Assembly: GCF_037023745.1 (NCBI RefSeq)
Contig: NZ_CP146101.1
Span: 3,960,001-4,024,000 of the forward strand
DNA from: Streptomyces sp. SCSIO 30461
GTDB taxonomy: Bacteria; Actinomycetota; Actinomycetes; Streptomycetales; Streptomycetaceae
Direction of reading: 5' to 3'
DNA length: 64,000 nt
The notes beneath the pieces were generated by a model. The model was not told where the DNA came from. It saw nothing but the letters and a program-made list of their open reading frames with translations, and did no database searches. The first letter of the stretch is position 1. Each line of letters starts with the position of its first letter. A program made the translations under genes and the position numbers. This document shows, one piece after another, positions 50,923 through 58,214 of this stretch.

Positions 50923-51401
50923 CGATGGCGCACCACGCCCTGGAGATCGCTCTGACCCGATCCCTCACCGCGACCGAACTCCATCACGCCGCCCGCACGA
51001 TGCCGCTCGCCGCCAACCACGACGCCACCCGGCTCATGACCGTCGTACGCGCCAAGACCCCGGGAAAGGCCCTCACCCGACTGCGCCGCCGGATCGGCAC
51101 ACGGCTGCCCATCGACGTCATCACCACGCACTACCCCGACCGAAGCGGCAAGATCCTCCTCAACGTGGCCTTCCCGAGCGCCGCACACACCGCTATCGCG
51201 GCGGCGGCCGACCGCGCAGCACAGACCCCTCAACGCTTCGTGGAGCTGGCCCTTCACCGGGCCCTGGCCCAGCACGCCAGCGATGAGGCCGACCGCCTCG
51301 ACCGTGCTTTGCAGCAGCTGCTCGCCCACACCACCCCCGCCCATCTCGTCGCGGCCGTCGGACACGCCCTGACCCGCACTTCCGGAGCCGCGCCGTGCTG
51401 A
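50919..51401 (+). CDS. Hypothetical helical protein (160 aa)
   Basis: The ATG at 50919 is coupled to the DUF6083 stop, and the end overlaps the helicase start. It is Ala- and Arg-rich. The middle (LRRRIGTRLPIDVITTHYPDRSGKILLNVAF) is basic with short strands and the ends are helical. I do not recognise a family. Being sandwiched between DUF6083 and a helicase in a three-gene overlapping set suggests a common function. Confidence 0.65.
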   Translation: MTMAHHALEIALTRSLTATELHHAARTMPLAANHDATRLMTVVRAKTPGKALTRLRRRIGTRLPIDVITTHYPDRSGKILLNVAFPSAAHTAIAAAADRAAQTPQRFVELALHRALAQHASDEADRLDRALQQLLAHTTPAHLVAAVGHALTRTSGAAPC

Positions 51402-52933
51402 AGCCGACCGACGAACAGGCCGCCGCGGCCGACGCCTTCCACGCCGGCGATCACCTGGCCCTGCAAGCCGGCGCGGGTACCGGCAAGACCACCACGCTGG
51501 CCCAGCTCGCCCACGCCACGCGGCGCCGCGGCCGCTACCTCGCCTACAACCGGGCCATCGCACAGGACGCCACTGCCCGCTTCCCCCGAAGCGTCCTGTG
51601 CAAGACCGCCCACGCCCTGGCCTACGCCGCCGTCGGCCACCGCTACACCCACCGTCTCAACGCCCCCCGCCGCCCCGCCTGGCAGACCGGGCAGGCCCTC
51701 GGCATCACCAAAGCCATTCGGATTGGCGAACGCGACCTGTCACAAAGAACGCTCTCCAACGCCGCTCTGCGCACGGTGGCCCGCTTCTGCCACAGCGCCG
51801 ACCCTGTCATCACCCGCCACCACGTCCCACGCCTACGCGGGCTTGAAGACCGCGGCCTGCACGCCGAACTCGCCGCCCACATTGTGCCCTTCGCCAGCAA
51901 GGCATGGAACGACCTCCAGCACCCCGGCGACGGCGCGGTCCGCTTCGACCACGACCACTACCTGAAAATCTGGTCCCTCACGGCCCCGAAAATCGACACC
52001 GACTTCCTCCTCCTCGACGAGGCCCAGGACACCAACCCCGTCGTCGAACAGATCTTCCTCAACCAGCGCAGCCACGCCCAGCTCGTCATGGTCGGCGACT
52101 CCGCCCAGGCCATCTACCACTGGCGCGGCGCCAAGGACGTCATGACCGGCTTCGACGGCACCAAACTCGCCCTGTCGAAGTCCTTCCGCTTCGGCCCTCA
52201 GCTCGCCGAGGAGGCCAACCGCTGGCTGGCCATCGCGGACGCCCCGATCCGCCTCACCGGCAGCGAGAGCGTGCCCACCGACCTCGGCCCTGTCACCCGG
52301 CCCGACGCCGTGCTGTGCCGCACCAACGTCGGTGCCATGGCCCAGGTCATGGACCTCCTGGCCGCTGGGTACCGGGTGGCCCTGGTCGGGGGCGGAGACA
52401 GCCTGCGCGCCCTGGCCCTGGCCGCCCGTGACCTGAAGGAAGGTCGCCGCACCACCCACCCCGAACTCGTTCTGTTCACCGCCTGGGGCGACCTGCAGGA
52501 CTACGCCGCCCACGACCCGGCCGGACGTGACCTGCAGCCGCTGGTCGACCTTGTGGACACCCACGGCACCGACGCCATCCTGGCTGCCGTCGCCCAGCTC
52601 GCCCCCGAAAACCAGGCAGAGGTGACCGTCTCGACCGCCCACAAGGCCAAAGGCCGCGAATGGGCCCGCGTGAAGATCGCCGACGACTTCACCCCGCCCC
52701 CGGACAGCGACCAGCAGGACGACACCGGCTGCGCTCTCCCAGGCCCTATCGACGACGGTGAAGCCCGCCTCGCCTACGTGGCCGTCACCCGCACGCGCAG
52801 GTGCCTCGACCTCGGCGGTCTGTCCTGGATCAACCAGCATCCCGACGGCGGTGGCGTATCAGGCGGCCCCGCGCCGGTTCCTGGTCCTCTCCCGGAGGCG
52901 TTGACGCCCCGATGTGTCGCACAGCTCCGGTAG
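51395..52933 (+). CDS. Small UvrD/Rep-like SF1 helicase
   Basis: The GTG at 51395 gives 512 residues. Motifs: Walker A LQAGAGTGKTTT (23-34), motif Ia RYLAYNRAIAQDA, Walker B FLLLDEAQDTNP, motif III LVMVGDSAQAIYHWRGA, motif IV SFRFG, motif V VSTAHKAKGREW and motif VI LAYVAVTRTRR. The set is complete, so it should unwind or translocate on DNA 3' to 5'. At 512 residues it is shorter than UvrD (about 720) and lacks most accessory subdomains, like helicases of phages and plasmids. It ends the DUF6083 operon. Confidence 0.88.
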   Translation: MLKPTDEQAAAADAFHAGDHLALQAGAGTGKTTTLAQLAHATRRRGRYLAYNRAIAQDATARFPRSVLCKTAHALAYAAVGHRYTHRLNAPRRPAWQTGQALGITKAIRIGERDLSQRTLSNAALRTVARFCHSADPVITRHHVPRLRGLEDRGLHAELAAHIVPFASKAWNDLQHPGDGAVRFDHDHYLKIWSLTAPKIDTDFLLLDEAQDTNPVVEQIFLNQRSHAQLVMVGDSAQAIYHWRGAKDVMTGFDGTKLALSKSFRFGPQLAEEANRWLAIADAPIRLTGSESVPTDLGPVTRPDAVLCRTNVGAMAQVMDLLAAGYRVALVGGGDSLRALALAARDLKEGRRTTHPELVLFTAWGDLQDYAAHDPAGRDLQPLVDLVDTHGTDAILAAVAQLAPENQAEVTVSTAHKAKGREWARVKIADDFTPPPDSDQQDDTGCALPGPIDDGEARLAYVAVTRTRRCLDLGGLSWINQHPDGGGVSGGPAPVPGPLPEALTPRCVAQLR

Positions 52934-53573: not shown

Positions 53574-53861
53574 ATGGGACTGGCCTTGGAGGAGTCGTTG
53601 CGGCTGACGGTGGCCGCATTGATGCAGGTGACGGGCGACTCGCAGCGGTCGGTTGCGGGGGTGCTGGGACTGACGCAGACGCAGGTCTCGCGCCGGCAGT
53701 CGGGTGCCGTTTCATGGAGTCTGCGCGACGTCGACGTCCTGGCCGCGCACTACGGCATCAGTGCGCTGGACCTGCTGGCGGGTCCGACCAGAGCGTGCGA
53801 GGTGCTGCCCGCCGACCGGCGCCGTTCCGCCCGGGCCGAGACGAAGGGGACAGGCCGGTGA
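53574..53861 (+). CDS. XRE-family regulator ahead of the Tap-like gene
   Basis: The ATG at 53574 follows GGAGG and gives 95 residues. A single HTH covers most of the protein (DSQRSVAGVLGLTQTQVSRRQSGAVSWSLRDVDVLAAHYGI). The 100 bases before it are unusually AT-rich for this genome and include GAAAGCTTTC, a likely promoter/operator region. Its stop overlaps the Tap-like start (GTGA), so it probably regulates the tap-tpg-like operon it heads. Confidence 0.8.
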   Translation: MGLALEESLRLTVAALMQVTGDSQRSVAGVLGLTQTQVSRRQSGAVSWSLRDVDVLAAHYGISALDLLAGPTRACEVLPADRRRSARAETKGTGR

Positions 53862-55411
53862 GCGACTTCGACGCGATCGACTCGCTGCTCGACGCCGTCG
53901 GCCCGCAGGCCGAACTCCCGCCCTGCCGGGTGCGCCGCGAGCTGCGGGAGCGGGCCCGGCTGTCCAAGGCGCAGGTGGCACGCGCGCTCGGCGTGAGCCC
54001 GTCCACCCTCAGCGGGTGGGAGAGCGGCCGCGACCCGGCCGGTGAGGTCCGCACCAAATACGCCTACCTGCTAGACGGACTGAAAGCCAAGCTCGCCACC
54101 GCCACCGAGAACACGGCGATGCCGGCTGAGGAGCAGCCCGTGGCGTCGGACACTGCTGCGGCGGCCGTCGCCTCTTCGTCTTCGACGGAACTCGGCCAGG
54201 ACGAGGACGAGGTGGAGCTGCTCGCCGTGCCCGAGTCGTGTGTGCTGTGCGGTCGTCCGGCCAAACAGCGTGTGGCCGGGTTTGCTCAGCATCTGGACCC
54301 CTCCGGCTGTCAGGCAACCCCTGCACAAACCCCGAAGGTCTCGCCCACCGCGCCATCTGCCCGGGCTCAAATGCCGCGTACAGCACGCCCGCCCCGCCCG
54401 TCCGGCGGGAAAGATGCGGCCCCGCGCGGACGGGCGTTCCAGGAGCCGTCCGGGCCGGGCGACGTGATCCACGAAGCGGTTCGCGCCGCGCTGGCCGAGC
54501 ACCAGGGCGATATCGAAGCCGCGAGCACCGCCCTGCTAAAGCGGGCCATCCCGGACGCGATGCGCCTGTTGGACGAGACCCGCAAGGGCGCCCGCTACGA
54601 CGTGATCGCCCACCCCTGGATCCCCGACATCCTCAAGAAGCAGACCTCCAAGGGCGCCGACCAGATCTGGGAGGCGCGCCCCAAATGGACCCGCACCGCC
54701 CTCCCGCCCGGTCGGCACGAGGTGACCGCGCTCGACATCAACGGCGCCTACCTCTCGGCCCTCAAGACCCACCTCCCGCTCGGCCAGCTGGAACACTCCA
54801 CGGGCTTTGCCCACGACCGGCGCCGCGCCGGAGTCCACCTGATCACCCCGCCCACCTGGGAGCACGACGCGGTGCTGCCCAACCCGATCGGCCAGCGCGA
54901 CGAACCAGGCCCCCTGTGGGTCACCGAGCCGACCCTGCGCCTGCTGCTGCGCCTGTCCGGCCCGAAGTACCGCCTGTGCGAGCCGCCCGAGGTCCACGAG
55001 TCGTACACCTCGGGAGCCACCGAGAACCTCCTGGAGAAGTTCCGGATCGCCCTCAAGGACGCCCGTGACACCGCGATCGCTGACGGCGACGGGCTGACGT
55101 TTGAGTACGTGAAGGCGATGTACTCCAAGTTCGTCTCCACGATGGGGGAGTCGAACTACAACCGGGAGCTCTACCGCCCGGACTGGATGCACATCATTCG
55201 CTCCCAGGCCTTCGCCAACCTCTGGATGAAGGCGCTCAAGGCCCACGACGCGGGACTGACGGTCGTACGGGCGATGGGCACCGACGAACTCCACGTCATC
55301 GGAGACTGGCGTCGTGTCCTCCCTGAAGGCCGCGGTGTTACCGAGGTCAAGGTCAAGGACACGTACACCGCCGGAACCGATGCCGAAGCCGGCACGGGGG
55401 AGAAGCAGTAG
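53858..55411 (+). CDS. tap: Tap-like telomere-associated protein with PolB-like palm
   Basis: The GTG at 53858 gives 517 residues. The first 78 residues resemble the start of Streptomyces Tap: LLDAVGPQAELPPCRVRREL, then an HTH (LSKAQVARALGVSPSTLSGWESG). A low-complexity linker with one zinc-type site (CVLC, 128-131, to Cys 151) follows. The C-terminal half has polymerase-B-like blocks: ALDINGAYLSALKTHLP (motif A type, Asp 293), EYVKAMYSKFVSTMGES (about 416-432) and RAMGTDELHV (motif C type, 471-480). Tap binds the telomere 3' overhang and recruits terminal protein Tpg for end patching. It is shorter than classical Tap (about 740), and similarity is clear only at the HTH and blocks, so it is a divergent member. 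Confidence 0.68.
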   Translation: MSDFDAIDSLLDAVGPQAELPPCRVRRELRERARLSKAQVARALGVSPSTLSGWESGRDPAGEVRTKYAYLLDGLKAKLATATENTAMPAEEQPVASDTAAAAVASSSSTELGQDEDEVELLAVPESCVLCGRPAKQRVAGFAQHLDPSGCQATPAQTPKVSPTAPSARAQMPRTARPPRPSGGKDAAPRGRAFQEPSGPGDVIHEAVRAALAEHQGDIEAASTALLKRAIPDAMRLLDETRKGARYDVIAHPWIPDILKKQTSKGADQIWEARPKWTRTALPPGRHEVTALDINGAYLSALKTHLPLGQLEHSTGFAHDRRRAGVHLITPPTWEHDAVLPNPIGQRDEPGPLWVTEPTLRLLLRLSGPKYRLCEPPEVHESYTSGATENLLEKFRIALKDARDTAIADGDGLTFEYVKAMYSKFVSTMGESNYNRELYRPDWMHIIRSQAFANLWMKALKAHDAGLTVVRAMGTDELHVIGDWRRVLPEGRGVTEVKVKDTYTAGTDAEAGTGEKQ

Positions 55412-55987
55412 ATGCCGGAGAAGAACATCGACTTCGGGAAGTTTGGTGCGAGCGGGATCAAGGGCAGCGAAGCCGTCGCCCGCCAGCTCGACTGGCTCGC
55501 CGCTCACATCGCCACCCCGGTGACCGCCAGGCGTGGCCTGATGGCACGCCTGCACTACCTGACGACATCGGACAGGGCCTGGCAGGCGGCCAAGGACGCC
55601 GGACTGACCGTGAGCGACCGGACGCTGAAGGCATGGCTGGAGGGCACCCGCCGTCCCTCGAAGGCCAACCTGGAACGCATCGACGCCGCCTACCGGGCGG
55701 TGCGGCGCCGCAACGTCGCCCGCCACCTCATCGCCCGCCTCAACCGCGAGGGTCGCGGCACTCGCGTGGAGATCCACCCCCTCGACCAGTCCGGCGTGGC
55801 GCGCCAGCTCCAGCGGGTGGTGGCTCACCGGACGATGAACGTGCGCCGCTGGGACAAGATCGTCGCGTCCTGGGCGGCCGGTGACCACCAGGGCCTGGAC
55901 GACGCCTGGACCGCCGATGTCCTGCCCGATCTCGGCTCCCAGTGGGGCCAGTACGAGTACGTCAAAAACATCGGCTTCGCCGCGTAG
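55412..55987 (+). CDS. tpg: Tpg-like terminal protein
   Basis: The ATG at 55412 directly follows the tap-like stop (TAGATG), and the protein has 191 residues, close to the 184 of Tpg. The region TARRGLMARLHYLTTSDRAWQ, then AGLTVSDRTLKAWLEGTRRPSKANLERI, matches the Tpg layout: a short helix, an HTH, KPRPEL-like spacing and an Arg-rich helix (AAYRAVRRRNVARHLIARLN), then VEIHPLDQSG. In Tpg this part binds the telomere, and a Thr or Ser primes DNA synthesis and stays on the 5' end. The last 50 residues (GDHQGLDDAWTADVLPDLGSQ) are not Tpg-like. A related non-telomeric DNA-binding role is possible. Confidence 0.62.
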   Translation: MPEKNIDFGKFGASGIKGSEAVARQLDWLAAHIATPVTARRGLMARLHYLTTSDRAWQAAKDAGLTVSDRTLKAWLEGTRRPSKANLERIDAAYRAVRRRNVARHLIARLNREGRGTRVEIHPLDQSGVARQLQRVVAHRTMNVRRWDKIVASWAAGDHQGLDDAWTADVLPDLGSQWGQYEYVKNIGFAA

Positions 55988-57140: not shown

Positions 57141-58214
57141 CTACATGTCGGCAGCCGCCATGCCCAACTGCCAGGTCAGGCACGAGCGTCGGCTGACCGG
57201 ACCGGTCCGGGACGCGATCCGGCTGTGCCCCGCCCCAAGCACCAGCCCGTTTCGGCCCGCCGTACCGGACGGCGCGGGCACCCCCCTACGGTGACGCCCC
57301 AGCCACATCAGCAGCGCCTGACGCCCTTCAACCACGTCCACCCCCCACCCGGCCATCAACTGCTCCACGCCCGCAAGCCATCGGGACCGGTCCGCCGTAT
57401 CCCGCCGCCCCGCGGATTCGAAGTCCACCATGGCGTGCGCGAGTTCCACGGCCTCCGGATAGATCACCAGCGGGGCCGCCCGCATCTCCCAGGCGTCCAG
57501 TCCAGCCGTCCAGGCCCGCCGAACCCAGCAGACGGTGTCCGGCATCCGCGTCCACCAGTACACCGCCACCTGGAAGGCATCGGCGAACAACTCCTCGCCA
57601 GCCGGCCCCCACCGTTCGGCCAGCTGCTGCCGCACCTGGTGCGCCGTCACCGTCTCGGGCAGCTCGGCCAGCTGCACGAAGTCCGGACCACGGCCGCGGG
57701 AGTCGTCCGACCAGTAACCGTGCCGCAGACAGACCTGCCAGCTGTCCGGCGACATCAGCCACACCGTCTTGCCGACACCCAGGGCATCAGCGCACGGCGG
57801 GCAGTACCGCACGAGGTGCCCCGCCACGGGCTCCCAGCGCCACCACCACTGCGCCGCCTCTTTGCCTGGCAGCAGGTGCTCCGCGCCCAGGCTGGGCAGA
57901 TCCTGCTGCAGAAGACCAGCCGCACGGTCAGCAAGGACAGCCAGATAGCGCAGCCCCGCCTCGTTCACGTACATCTCGGTGGACTGCGGGTACTTCTCCA
58001 CCCGCTCGGTGTACGCGGATGCCTCGCCCTGTCCGACGCGGTCGAGGAACGCCGCCAGGCTCAGGCCGTTGGCGTGCGCGAGCCGGTTCACGAACGACCC
58101 CGTCGACTCACCCGGCACCGGCCGCACACGCAGCGGCAGCGGCCGGCGAGGCCCGTACAGACCGGGATCGTCCAACACCGCTGCCCTTCCGCCGAAGCCG
58201 TCACCACGGGTCAC
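57141..58214 (-). CDS. tniQ: TniQ/TnsD-family target selector
   Basis: The GTG at 58214 gives 357 residues. The N-terminus LPLRVRPVPGESTGSFVNRLAHANGLSLAAFLDRVG is the hallmark of TniQ. A zinc site follows (RYCPPCADALG, Cys 138/141; WQVCLRHGYW, Cys 162/His 165). TniQ proteins choose the target for Tn7-like transposases, and TnsD-type members bind a fixed attachment gene. This gene ends 54 bases from the 3' end of tRNA-fMet and 16 kb from the tnsABC operon. Whether it serves that operon or belongs to another element is not shown by the sequence. The C-terminal part is not recognisable as a specific DNA reader. Confidence 0.82.
   Translation of the reverse strand: MTRGDGFGGRAAVLDDPGLYGPRRPLPLRVRPVPGESTGSFVNRLAHANGLSLAAFLDRVGQGEASAYTERVEKYPQSTEMYVNEAGLRYLAVLADRAAGLLQQDLPSLGAEHLLPGKEAAQWWWRWEPVAGHLVRYCPPCADALGVGKTVWLMSPDSWQVCLRHGYWSDDSRGRGPDFVQLAELPETVTAHQVRQQLAERWGPAGEELFADAFQVAVYWWTRMPDTVCWVRRAWTAGLDAWEMRAAPLVIYPEAVELAHAMVDFESAGRRDTADRSRWLAGVEQLMAGWGVDVVEGRQALLMWLGRHRRGVPAPSGTAGRNGLVLGAGHSRIASRTGPVSRRSCLTWQLGMAAADM

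Follow-up and report, generated by a model that had tools for sequence, protein, structure and literature searches.

Locus and gene organisation

The window analysed here is a stretch of 64,000 nucleotides from Streptomyces sp. SCSIO 30461 (contig NZ_CP146101.1, positions 3,960,001 to 4,024,000 of the forward strand), and it was found to contain a three-gene module in which genes 2 and 3 very probably encode, judged from sequence comparison, the telomere-associated protein and the terminal protein of an end-patching pair for telomeres of the Sg2247 type. By a check of the reading frames, gene 1 was found to begin with ATG, gene 2 with GTG at position 53858, in a GTGA overlap with gene 1, and gene 3 with an ATG placed directly after the TAG of gene 2 (TAGATG junction). 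The coupling of the three genes by GTGA and TAGATG, claimed by an earlier sequence-only reading of this DNA, was confirmed in this way, and the DINGAYLSAL and GTDELHV blocks that it had named were both found in gene 2. The module was found to contain the following features (HTH, helix-turn-helix; aa, amino acids).

53574..53861, + strand: gene 1, XRE/BetR-like HTH protein, 95 aa, probable regulator and optional part of the module (Pfam BetR, E 3.4e-5)
53858..55411, + strand: gene 2, Tap-like telomere-associated protein, 517 aa (NCBIfam telomere_Tap NF047542; hhalign to canonical Tap)
53936..54040, + strand: HTH of the Tap-like protein, residues 27-61 (Pfam HTH_31, E 2e-10)
54239..54310, + strand: zinc-finger-like CxxC-x13-H-x5-C of the Tap-like protein, residues 128-151
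54428..55408, + strand: C-terminal catalytic-like domain of the Tap-like protein, residues 191-517, with D293 (DINGAY) and D476-E477 (GTDE) as invariant residues
55412..55987, + strand: gene 3, Tpg-like putative terminal protein with HTH, 191 aa (adjacent to gene 2; weak HTH_3 match below the Pfam cut-off)

Relationship of gene 2 to Tap

Above the Pfam cut-off, gene 2 was found to contain HTH-type domains only. Its best stretch against the NCBIfam model telomere_Tap (NF047542) covered residues 4-205 (E 1.6e-19, 70.1 bits), and this score places the protein outside the canonical Taps, for which the full model has a curated threshold of 600 bits. The first 80 residues were found to be 41% identical to the canonical Tap HTH (E 2.3e-20; hhalign, ten canonical Taps), and the Tap-type HTH start proposed for gene 2 was thereby borne out. 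In the full-length hhalign comparison the HTH alone was aligned, with nothing beyond it. The C-terminal domains taken alone were collinear, with P 6.9e-4 and a probability of 27% when close relatives only were used, and with P 3.2e-6 and a probability of 88% when the sub-types A2, B and C and some intermediates were added. The collinear blocks of gene 2 and Tap were DIN/DVN, LPNP/LPSP, GPLWVTEPT/GPAWYATPT and RPDW/RPTW, respectively. On this modest evidence the C-terminal half of gene 2 appears to be homologous to that of Tap. The same domain is common to relatives fused to a DnaB helicase and is shared more weakly with canonical Tap.

The residues D293 and N295 (DINGAY) and D476 and E477 (GTDE) were found to be invariant in 49/49 aligned relatives of gene 2. 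The residues C128, C131, H145 and C151 were also invariant in 49/49, and they form a zinc-finger-like C2HC set that was absent from the sequence-only reading; no such set was found among the invariant columns of the ten canonical Taps.

The sequence-only reading had also described polymerase-B-like blocks in gene 2. The motifs were present, and the assignment to family B DNA polymerases (PolB) was not supported, since it consisted of motif resemblance and no Pfam polymerase match was found. No polymerase family appeared among the Pfam matches to the C-terminal domain up to E 10, a range in which the HMMER filters drop most such weak matches. With the E limit set at 1, the PDB sequence search gave HTH proteins and chance-level rows, and the PHROGs and PDB sequence searches with genes 2 and 3 gave HTH matches or chance-level rows. 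PolB membership was therefore rejected as a claim, profile support being absent. A polymerase-type activity is proposed through Tap and not through PolB, because Tap with Tpg, and Tac with Tpc, were reported to attach nucleotides to their terminal proteins in vitro, the authors having seen no polymerase motif (PMC4513846; this and the other papers are cited from the parts of their text that were available). A phage origin of gene 2 was rejected as well, with 0 matches in 50,697 phage records.

Relationship of gene 3 to Tpg

Against canonical Tpg, residues 41-95 of gene 3 (the HTH region) were found to be collinear (P 0.003, probability 10.6%). Homology over the full length of Tpg, including the region of T114, was not found, and gene 3 has no aligned counterpart of T114, the nucleotide-bearing residue of Tpg (PMC3572947). 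The residue Y181 was kept in 57/57 aligned relatives (type C left out) and is a candidate attachment residue. Of the description as a Tpg-like HTH protein of 191 residues, the size and a weak HTH match stood, and the C-terminal half was without a detectable Tpg match. The profile comparison suggested by the sequence-only reading thus gave, for gene 2, a match to the HTH and the C-terminus of Tap and, for gene 3, a weak match to Tpg in the HTH only.

Telomere class of module-bearing replicons

The ends of several module-bearing replicons were found to contain a hairpin, followed by ACGACGCG or a similar sequence, followed by a hairpin with a TAC loop. In brief, the class consists of a hairpin, GACGC and a TAC-loop hairpin, and published Sg2247-type ends are among its members. 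In 11 distinct sequences 105/105 pairs of the hairpins held, and 8/13 pairs were changed on both sides; 0/500 shuffles reached the pairing score, a figure inflated by relatedness. By motif, TAC-class ends were found in 9/34 module-bearing and in 0/6 module-free genomes, many ends being without a recognisable telomere.

The plasmid pSCAT is listed as Sg2247-type (PMC8743542), and its end was used as the query of the plasmid telomere search. The jinggangensis plasmids CP003276 and CP003721 were found to have one end of the TAC class and an opposite end of the archetypal class. Two plasmids with hybrid ends, pSHJG1 and pSHJGH1, have been described with the Sg2247 end on the right (PMC8743542); from the organism and the hybrid ends, CP003276 and CP003721 would be pSHJG1 and pSHJGH1, with the Sg2247-type end at base 1 here. 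In SirexAA-E the telomere model matched base 1-40 of the chromosome, and the module lies about 11 kb or more from that end. The plasmid pSGZL (CP003988), also listed as Sg2247-type, was found to carry a gene 3 relative (H314).

Further end types were also seen. CAAG-loop hairpins were present behind an archetypal first palindrome at the left end of genome G377 and in G030, and genome G190 had an unclassified end with CAAG-loop hairpins. The loci with such further end types were L215, L255 (G190), L227 and L233. Among the genomes with type C, G289 had archetypal ends and G088 had other hairpins, for which the motif test failed.

Association of the module with telomere class and canonical Tap

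The pSCAT end was matched by 44 plasmid records, and 33/44 carried the module among the matches listed. The telomere match lay at most 300 bp from the record's own end in 32 of these and at most 4 kb from it in 43, the last one being 19.7 kb in; all were kept. With the three hybrids that also matched an archetypal end set aside, 41 plasmids had a TAC-class end only, and the module was found, among the matches listed, in 33/41 of these against 2/57 of the plasmids with archetypal ends only. The plasmid counts draw on 60 listed of 147, 154, 152 and 147 matches and, for archetypal ends, on 60 of 106, and absences are accordingly not proven. The 11 end-matching plasmids with no module among the matches listed included the three hybrids; CP108236 and the hybrid CP109439 carry type C, and CP108583 of NBC_01187 is accompanied by a relative on another plasmid of that strain, CP108584.

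In the genomes, a covariance model of the end was found to hit 61/392, and 22/89 listed matches started at contig base 1-3. The genome scan used stricter filters, by which weak matches were lost, and the model missed some ends (G063, G106 and G204 were of the TAC class by motif and without a model match). A strong module was present in 55/61 genomes with the telomere model (57/61 with any module) and in 90/331 without it; after removal of the 8 training genomes the strong module was found in 49/55 with and 88/329 without the telomere. Of 20 chosen named module-bearing genomes, 10 gave a telomere match at E 0.05, two of them a weak one (E above 0.01).

Canonical Tap (E up to 1e-100) was found in 276/392 genomes. 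The strong module was present in 91/116 genomes without canonical Tap against 54/276 with it; of the remaining Tap-less genomes, 7 contained only a weak type C and 18 contained neither Tap nor module. The latter 18 may have end systems of another kind or chromosomes that are circular.

This complementarity bears on the reading that genes with another role, such as regulation or transfer, travel with the telomeres as end-linked passengers without patching them. The database names among the 120 matches listed for each of genes 2 and 3, where given, were mostly HTH or transcriptional regulator, which favours it, and other end-linked genes such as helicases with HA domains travel along in the same way. 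Against this, both parts of gene 2 are homologous to parts of Tap, and a strong complementarity to canonical Tap would be unexpected for a passenger, so that this reading is considered very improbable.

Distribution and gene order

The C-terminal domain of gene 2 was found in 161/392 sampled genomes of the genus, which is taken to be Streptomyces on account of the named loci. The strong module count is 145/392, from which 16 genomes with weak type C, chosen by visual inspection, were left out (best E of about 1e-14 to 1e-19). At E 0.001 there were 1918 matches to gene 2 and 845 to gene 3; for gene 2, 8000 candidates were scored and kin by the HTH only may be included. A gene 3 relative was present in 120/136 gene 2 loci, in 119 of these at most 300 bp from the gene 2 match, and a relative of gene 1 (tblastn, E up to 1e-3) in 67/136; the 136 loci are partly redundant, some having been reached twice, and some are cut by contig ends. 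The XRE gene, which the sequence-only reading had taken as the module's own regulator, is present here and is an optional part, because its relative occurs in only 67/136 loci.

In five loci (L165, L166, L172, L173 and L174) the Tap-like C-terminal domain was seen behind a DnaB_C helicase, followed in each by a Tpg-like gene. The DnaB_C domain was found by Pfam in L166 and L174 (E 3e-23 and 1e-15). L165 and L166, with helicase-fused relatives, lie 14 and 3 kb from both contig ends.

Position relative to replicon ends

In 28 single-contig genomes the best match was found at a median of 47.5 kb from the nearest contig end, against a uniform expectation of about 2.3 Mb; 11 were within 20 kb of an end and 17 within 100 kb, and the maximum was 913 kb. 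This count takes the best match per genome, leaves out the genome of the strain itself (circularised contig) and includes two type C genomes. A copy was present near both contig ends in 10/20 chosen genomes.

On plasmids, the module was found 2.3-4.7 kb from the end in NBC_00493, 1.4-3.5 kb in NBC_01178, in which the XRE gene is not annotated, 3.4-5.9 kb in NBC_01361, and 8-10.4 kb in CP109195 (S. cellulosae), in the last at both ends. Of the 60 listed of 147 plasmid copies, 15 were within 20 kb of the record end and 35 within 50 kb. When scaled from 0 at the end to 1 in the middle, their positions were biased outward with a median of 0.20, many of the records being near copies of one another. 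In other replicons the genes also occur outside integrated elements, and on several plasmids they lie within about 12 kb of the end.

State of the module in the genome of SCSIO 30461

Around the module the window was found to contain the following features.

51395..52933, + strand: UvrD-like helicase (Pfam UvrD-helicase, E 2.3e-15), in the same order in the S. cellulosae plasmid end CP109195
53002..64000, + strand: CP109185-like stretch, 94% identical to the end of the linear plasmid CP109185
56056..56838, - strand: 260-aa protein of unknown family, with a gene order shared with a hypothetical gene in plasmid ends (CP109195)
57141..58214, - strand: TniQ-domain protein (Pfam TniQ, E 9.5e-16), syntenic in S. 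cellulosae plasmid ends
58313..60730, + strand: helicase with HA domains (Pfam HA, E 5e-37, and ResIII), an end-proximal neighbour labelled here TtrA-like

For the 260-aa protein neither Pfam nor NCBIfam gave a match at E 0.1. An HA-domain helicase was seen near the module in 6/7 plasmids whose module region was read, the exception being the NBC_01178 stretch, and a TniQ-domain gene goes with it in the S. cellulosae plasmid ends as well as in the window.

The genome consists of one circularised contig of 8,047,498 bp with ordinary coding genes at both contig ends, and no telomere was found at either of them. The gene dnaA lies at 0.137 Mb, and the window is therefore close to the antipode, the region in which a linear chromosome would have its ends. 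The 11-kb homology to CP109185 begins 1.77 kb inside the telomere of that plasmid and stops, without a telomere, at genome position 4,024,007, 7 bp past the window. A canonical tap-tpg pair was found at 3.77 Mb (genome 3,768,228-3,770,431, - strand, locus L005), and its tap is split over two frames in the region of the HTH, being either a pseudogene or affected by a sequencing error. The sequence-only reading had named as a refutation a circular replicon with a separate canonical tap-tpg pair and with these genes confined to integrated elements. A circularised contig and a separate pair were indeed found, and the confinement was not seen elsewhere; the replicon ends, whose location had been proposed as a check, were without a telomere here and of a non-archetypal class in several module-bearing replicons.

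It is about an even chance that the module is a relic in its own strain, the chromosome being circular or having lost its telomeres and the genes surviving from the end of a linear plasmid that was integrated or fused. The ordinary genes at the contig ends, the place of the module near the antipode of dnaA, the homology that ends 1.77 kb short of the CP109185 telomere, the telomere model without a match and the canonical tap in two frames all favour such a relic. On the other side stand the intact reading frames of all three genes and the 98% identity of gene 3 to an S. cellulosae plasmid protein. Moreover, telomeres are often lost or misjoined by assemblers (PMC8743542), and further replicons could be absent from the assembly. 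As the matching telomere is absent from the contig, the window copy may be stranded, or may act in trans.

Almost the whole window was found to be flanked by a perfect inverted repeat of 6,750 bp (genome 3,952,879-3,959,628 and 4,025,330-4,032,079), the outer 1.34 kb of which recurs a third time at 4,055,770 in the manner of an insertion sequence. The repeat was rejected as a terminal inverted repeat of the chromosome, because its outer part recurs like an insertion sequence and no telomere hairpin cluster was found there.

Proposed function

The operon structure, the Tap kinship, the bias towards ends, the association with a telomere class and the complementarity to canonical Tap are the data on which the assignment of genes 2 and 3 rests. 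The pair forms a two-gene operon of linear replicons, lies preferentially towards the ends of these and goes with one telomere class; by these features it would belong to the functional class of Streptomyces end-patching systems. The proposal of a divergent Tap/Tpg-like module serving telomeres of a different sequence gained support from end position, telomere-class association and Tap complementarity. In its wider form, the interpretation is that the pair probably supplies the end-patching proteins so far missing for Sg2247-type telomeres, as a further lineage of terminal and telomere-associated proteins (TP/TAP) present in over a third of Streptomyces species (145/392) and spread by linear plasmids. 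This lineage would be part of a larger set that shares one C-terminal end-patching domain, fused in some members to an HTH and in others to a DnaB-type helicase, and each form would have a small terminal protein of its own.

When the replication fork reaches the end, the 3' overhang would fold into hairpins, followed by binding of the Tap-like protein through its HTH and zinc-finger-like part and recruitment of the Tpg-like protein. The C-terminal domain, with D293 and D476, could then couple the first nucleotides to the Tpg-like protein at one of its hydroxyls, and the Tpg-like protein would stay on the 5' end and prime the filling of the gap. The XRE protein, where present, probably regulates the operon.

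Several points weigh against this interpretation. Every biochemical step of the cycle is one that we infer, and the kinship of gene 3 to Tpg appears weak and limited to the HTH. Of the 60 listed plasmid copies, 14 lie more than 100 kb from the record end, and the pSCAT copy about 350 kb. Eight non-hybrid plasmids with such ends show no module among the matches listed. The strong module was without a telomere match in 90 genomes, many of which are drafts, and six telomere genomes were without a strong module (G071, G178, G194, G234, G361 and G372). The archetypal motif was found at ends of the module genomes G377 (left) and G289 (distant type C only). In the genome of SCSIO 30461 no telomere model match was found, and in the 464 kb surrounding the window the best E was 0.3. 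The 44 plasmid matches to the pSCAT end did not include the end of pSGZL, and of the published Sg2247-type replicons only pSCAT and the jinggangensis plasmids were matched, S. rimosus ATCC 10970 and S. albidoflavus J1074, which have chromosome ends of this type, being outside the comparison. The association tests ignore shared ancestry, by which statistical significance is overstated, and incomplete ends. On balance the gene pair is well supported across the genus, and its state in its own strain is less settled.

Sg2247-type genomes have been described as being without Tap, Tpg, Tac and Tpc, and their end-patching proteins as elusive (PMC8743542, 2021). In S. albus J1074 a Tap-domain gene was reported at the right end and an unidentified pair was assumed (PMC3937824). 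The two-gene candidate makes the elusive Sg2247 proteins and the assumed J1074 pair directly testable. It would account for most sampled genomes without canonical Tap (91/116) and would offer an independent protein-primed system for linear vectors, and genes now labelled as transcriptional regulators could gain a function in many records. In the available text of the open-access papers PMC8743542, PMC4513846, PMC7205883, PMC3937824, PMC3572947 and PMC11260486 the pair was not found to be named for Sg2247-type ends, subscription literature being mostly outside this scope.

Comparison with known systems

Among the matches listed, a subtype about 49% identical to gene 2 was frequent in strains that carry the labels S. 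griseus, anulatus, globisporus and others of the S. griseus clade. This is in favour of the module being a branch of the GtpB-GtpA system of S. griseus IFO13350, of which only the range and the Sg2247 link would be new, and so is the nature of GtpA, which also diverges from Tpg (18% identity) and is paired with a Tap-like protein (PMC7205883). In the available text of that paper, a search with GtpB and GtpA (cut-off 50% identity, 98% coverage) is described, and neither a Tap nor a Tpg homologue is reported for the linear plasmid of RLB1-9, which is named pRLB1-9.1 or pRLB1-9.2 in different places. However, the 106,635-bp plasmid record of RLB1-9 was found to carry the module at 67% identity (H41) together with a TAC-class end (H137), and the module therefore falls below the GtpB/GtpA cut-off, if this plasmid was searched. 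That the module is such a branch is possible but doubtful. For sub-clade II, the chromosome ends of which were reported to be 75% identical to those of SirexAA-E, Tpg/Tap-alt or GtpBA has been proposed (PMC7205883). S1A1-8, which encodes a gene 2 protein 93% identical to that of the window (P0003), presumably belongs to sub-clade II, since it is a sister strain of RLB1-9 of that sub-clade.

With Tap/Tpg the pair shares the operon order, the Tap-type HTH start, a collinear C-terminal domain and a small HTH partner of similar size. It differs in the length of gene 2, which is 517 aa against 688-742 aa in ten canonical Taps, in the zinc-finger-like insert of gene 2, in its 70 bits against the Tap cut-off of 600, in the C-terminal half of gene 3, which is without a match, and in the telomere class. 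The GtpB-GtpA system, compared by description only, is similarly a divergent TP/TAP pair of a non-archetypal chromosome end (PMC7205883), whereas it serves the Sg13350 telomere class, which is kept apart from Sg2247 (PMC8743542). Tac/Tpc of SCP1 is likewise a TP/TAP pair outside the archetypal class, and protein-primed synthesis by it has been reported in vitro (PMC4513846); Tac/Tpc, again compared by description only, serves SCP1-type ends. Gene 2 of the window differs from the pRL2 pair, which consists of a Tap/helicase-like and a Tpg-like protein (PMC8743542), in having an HTH and no helicase domain, and it is the DnaB_C-fused types B and C that, by description, resemble the pRL2 pair.

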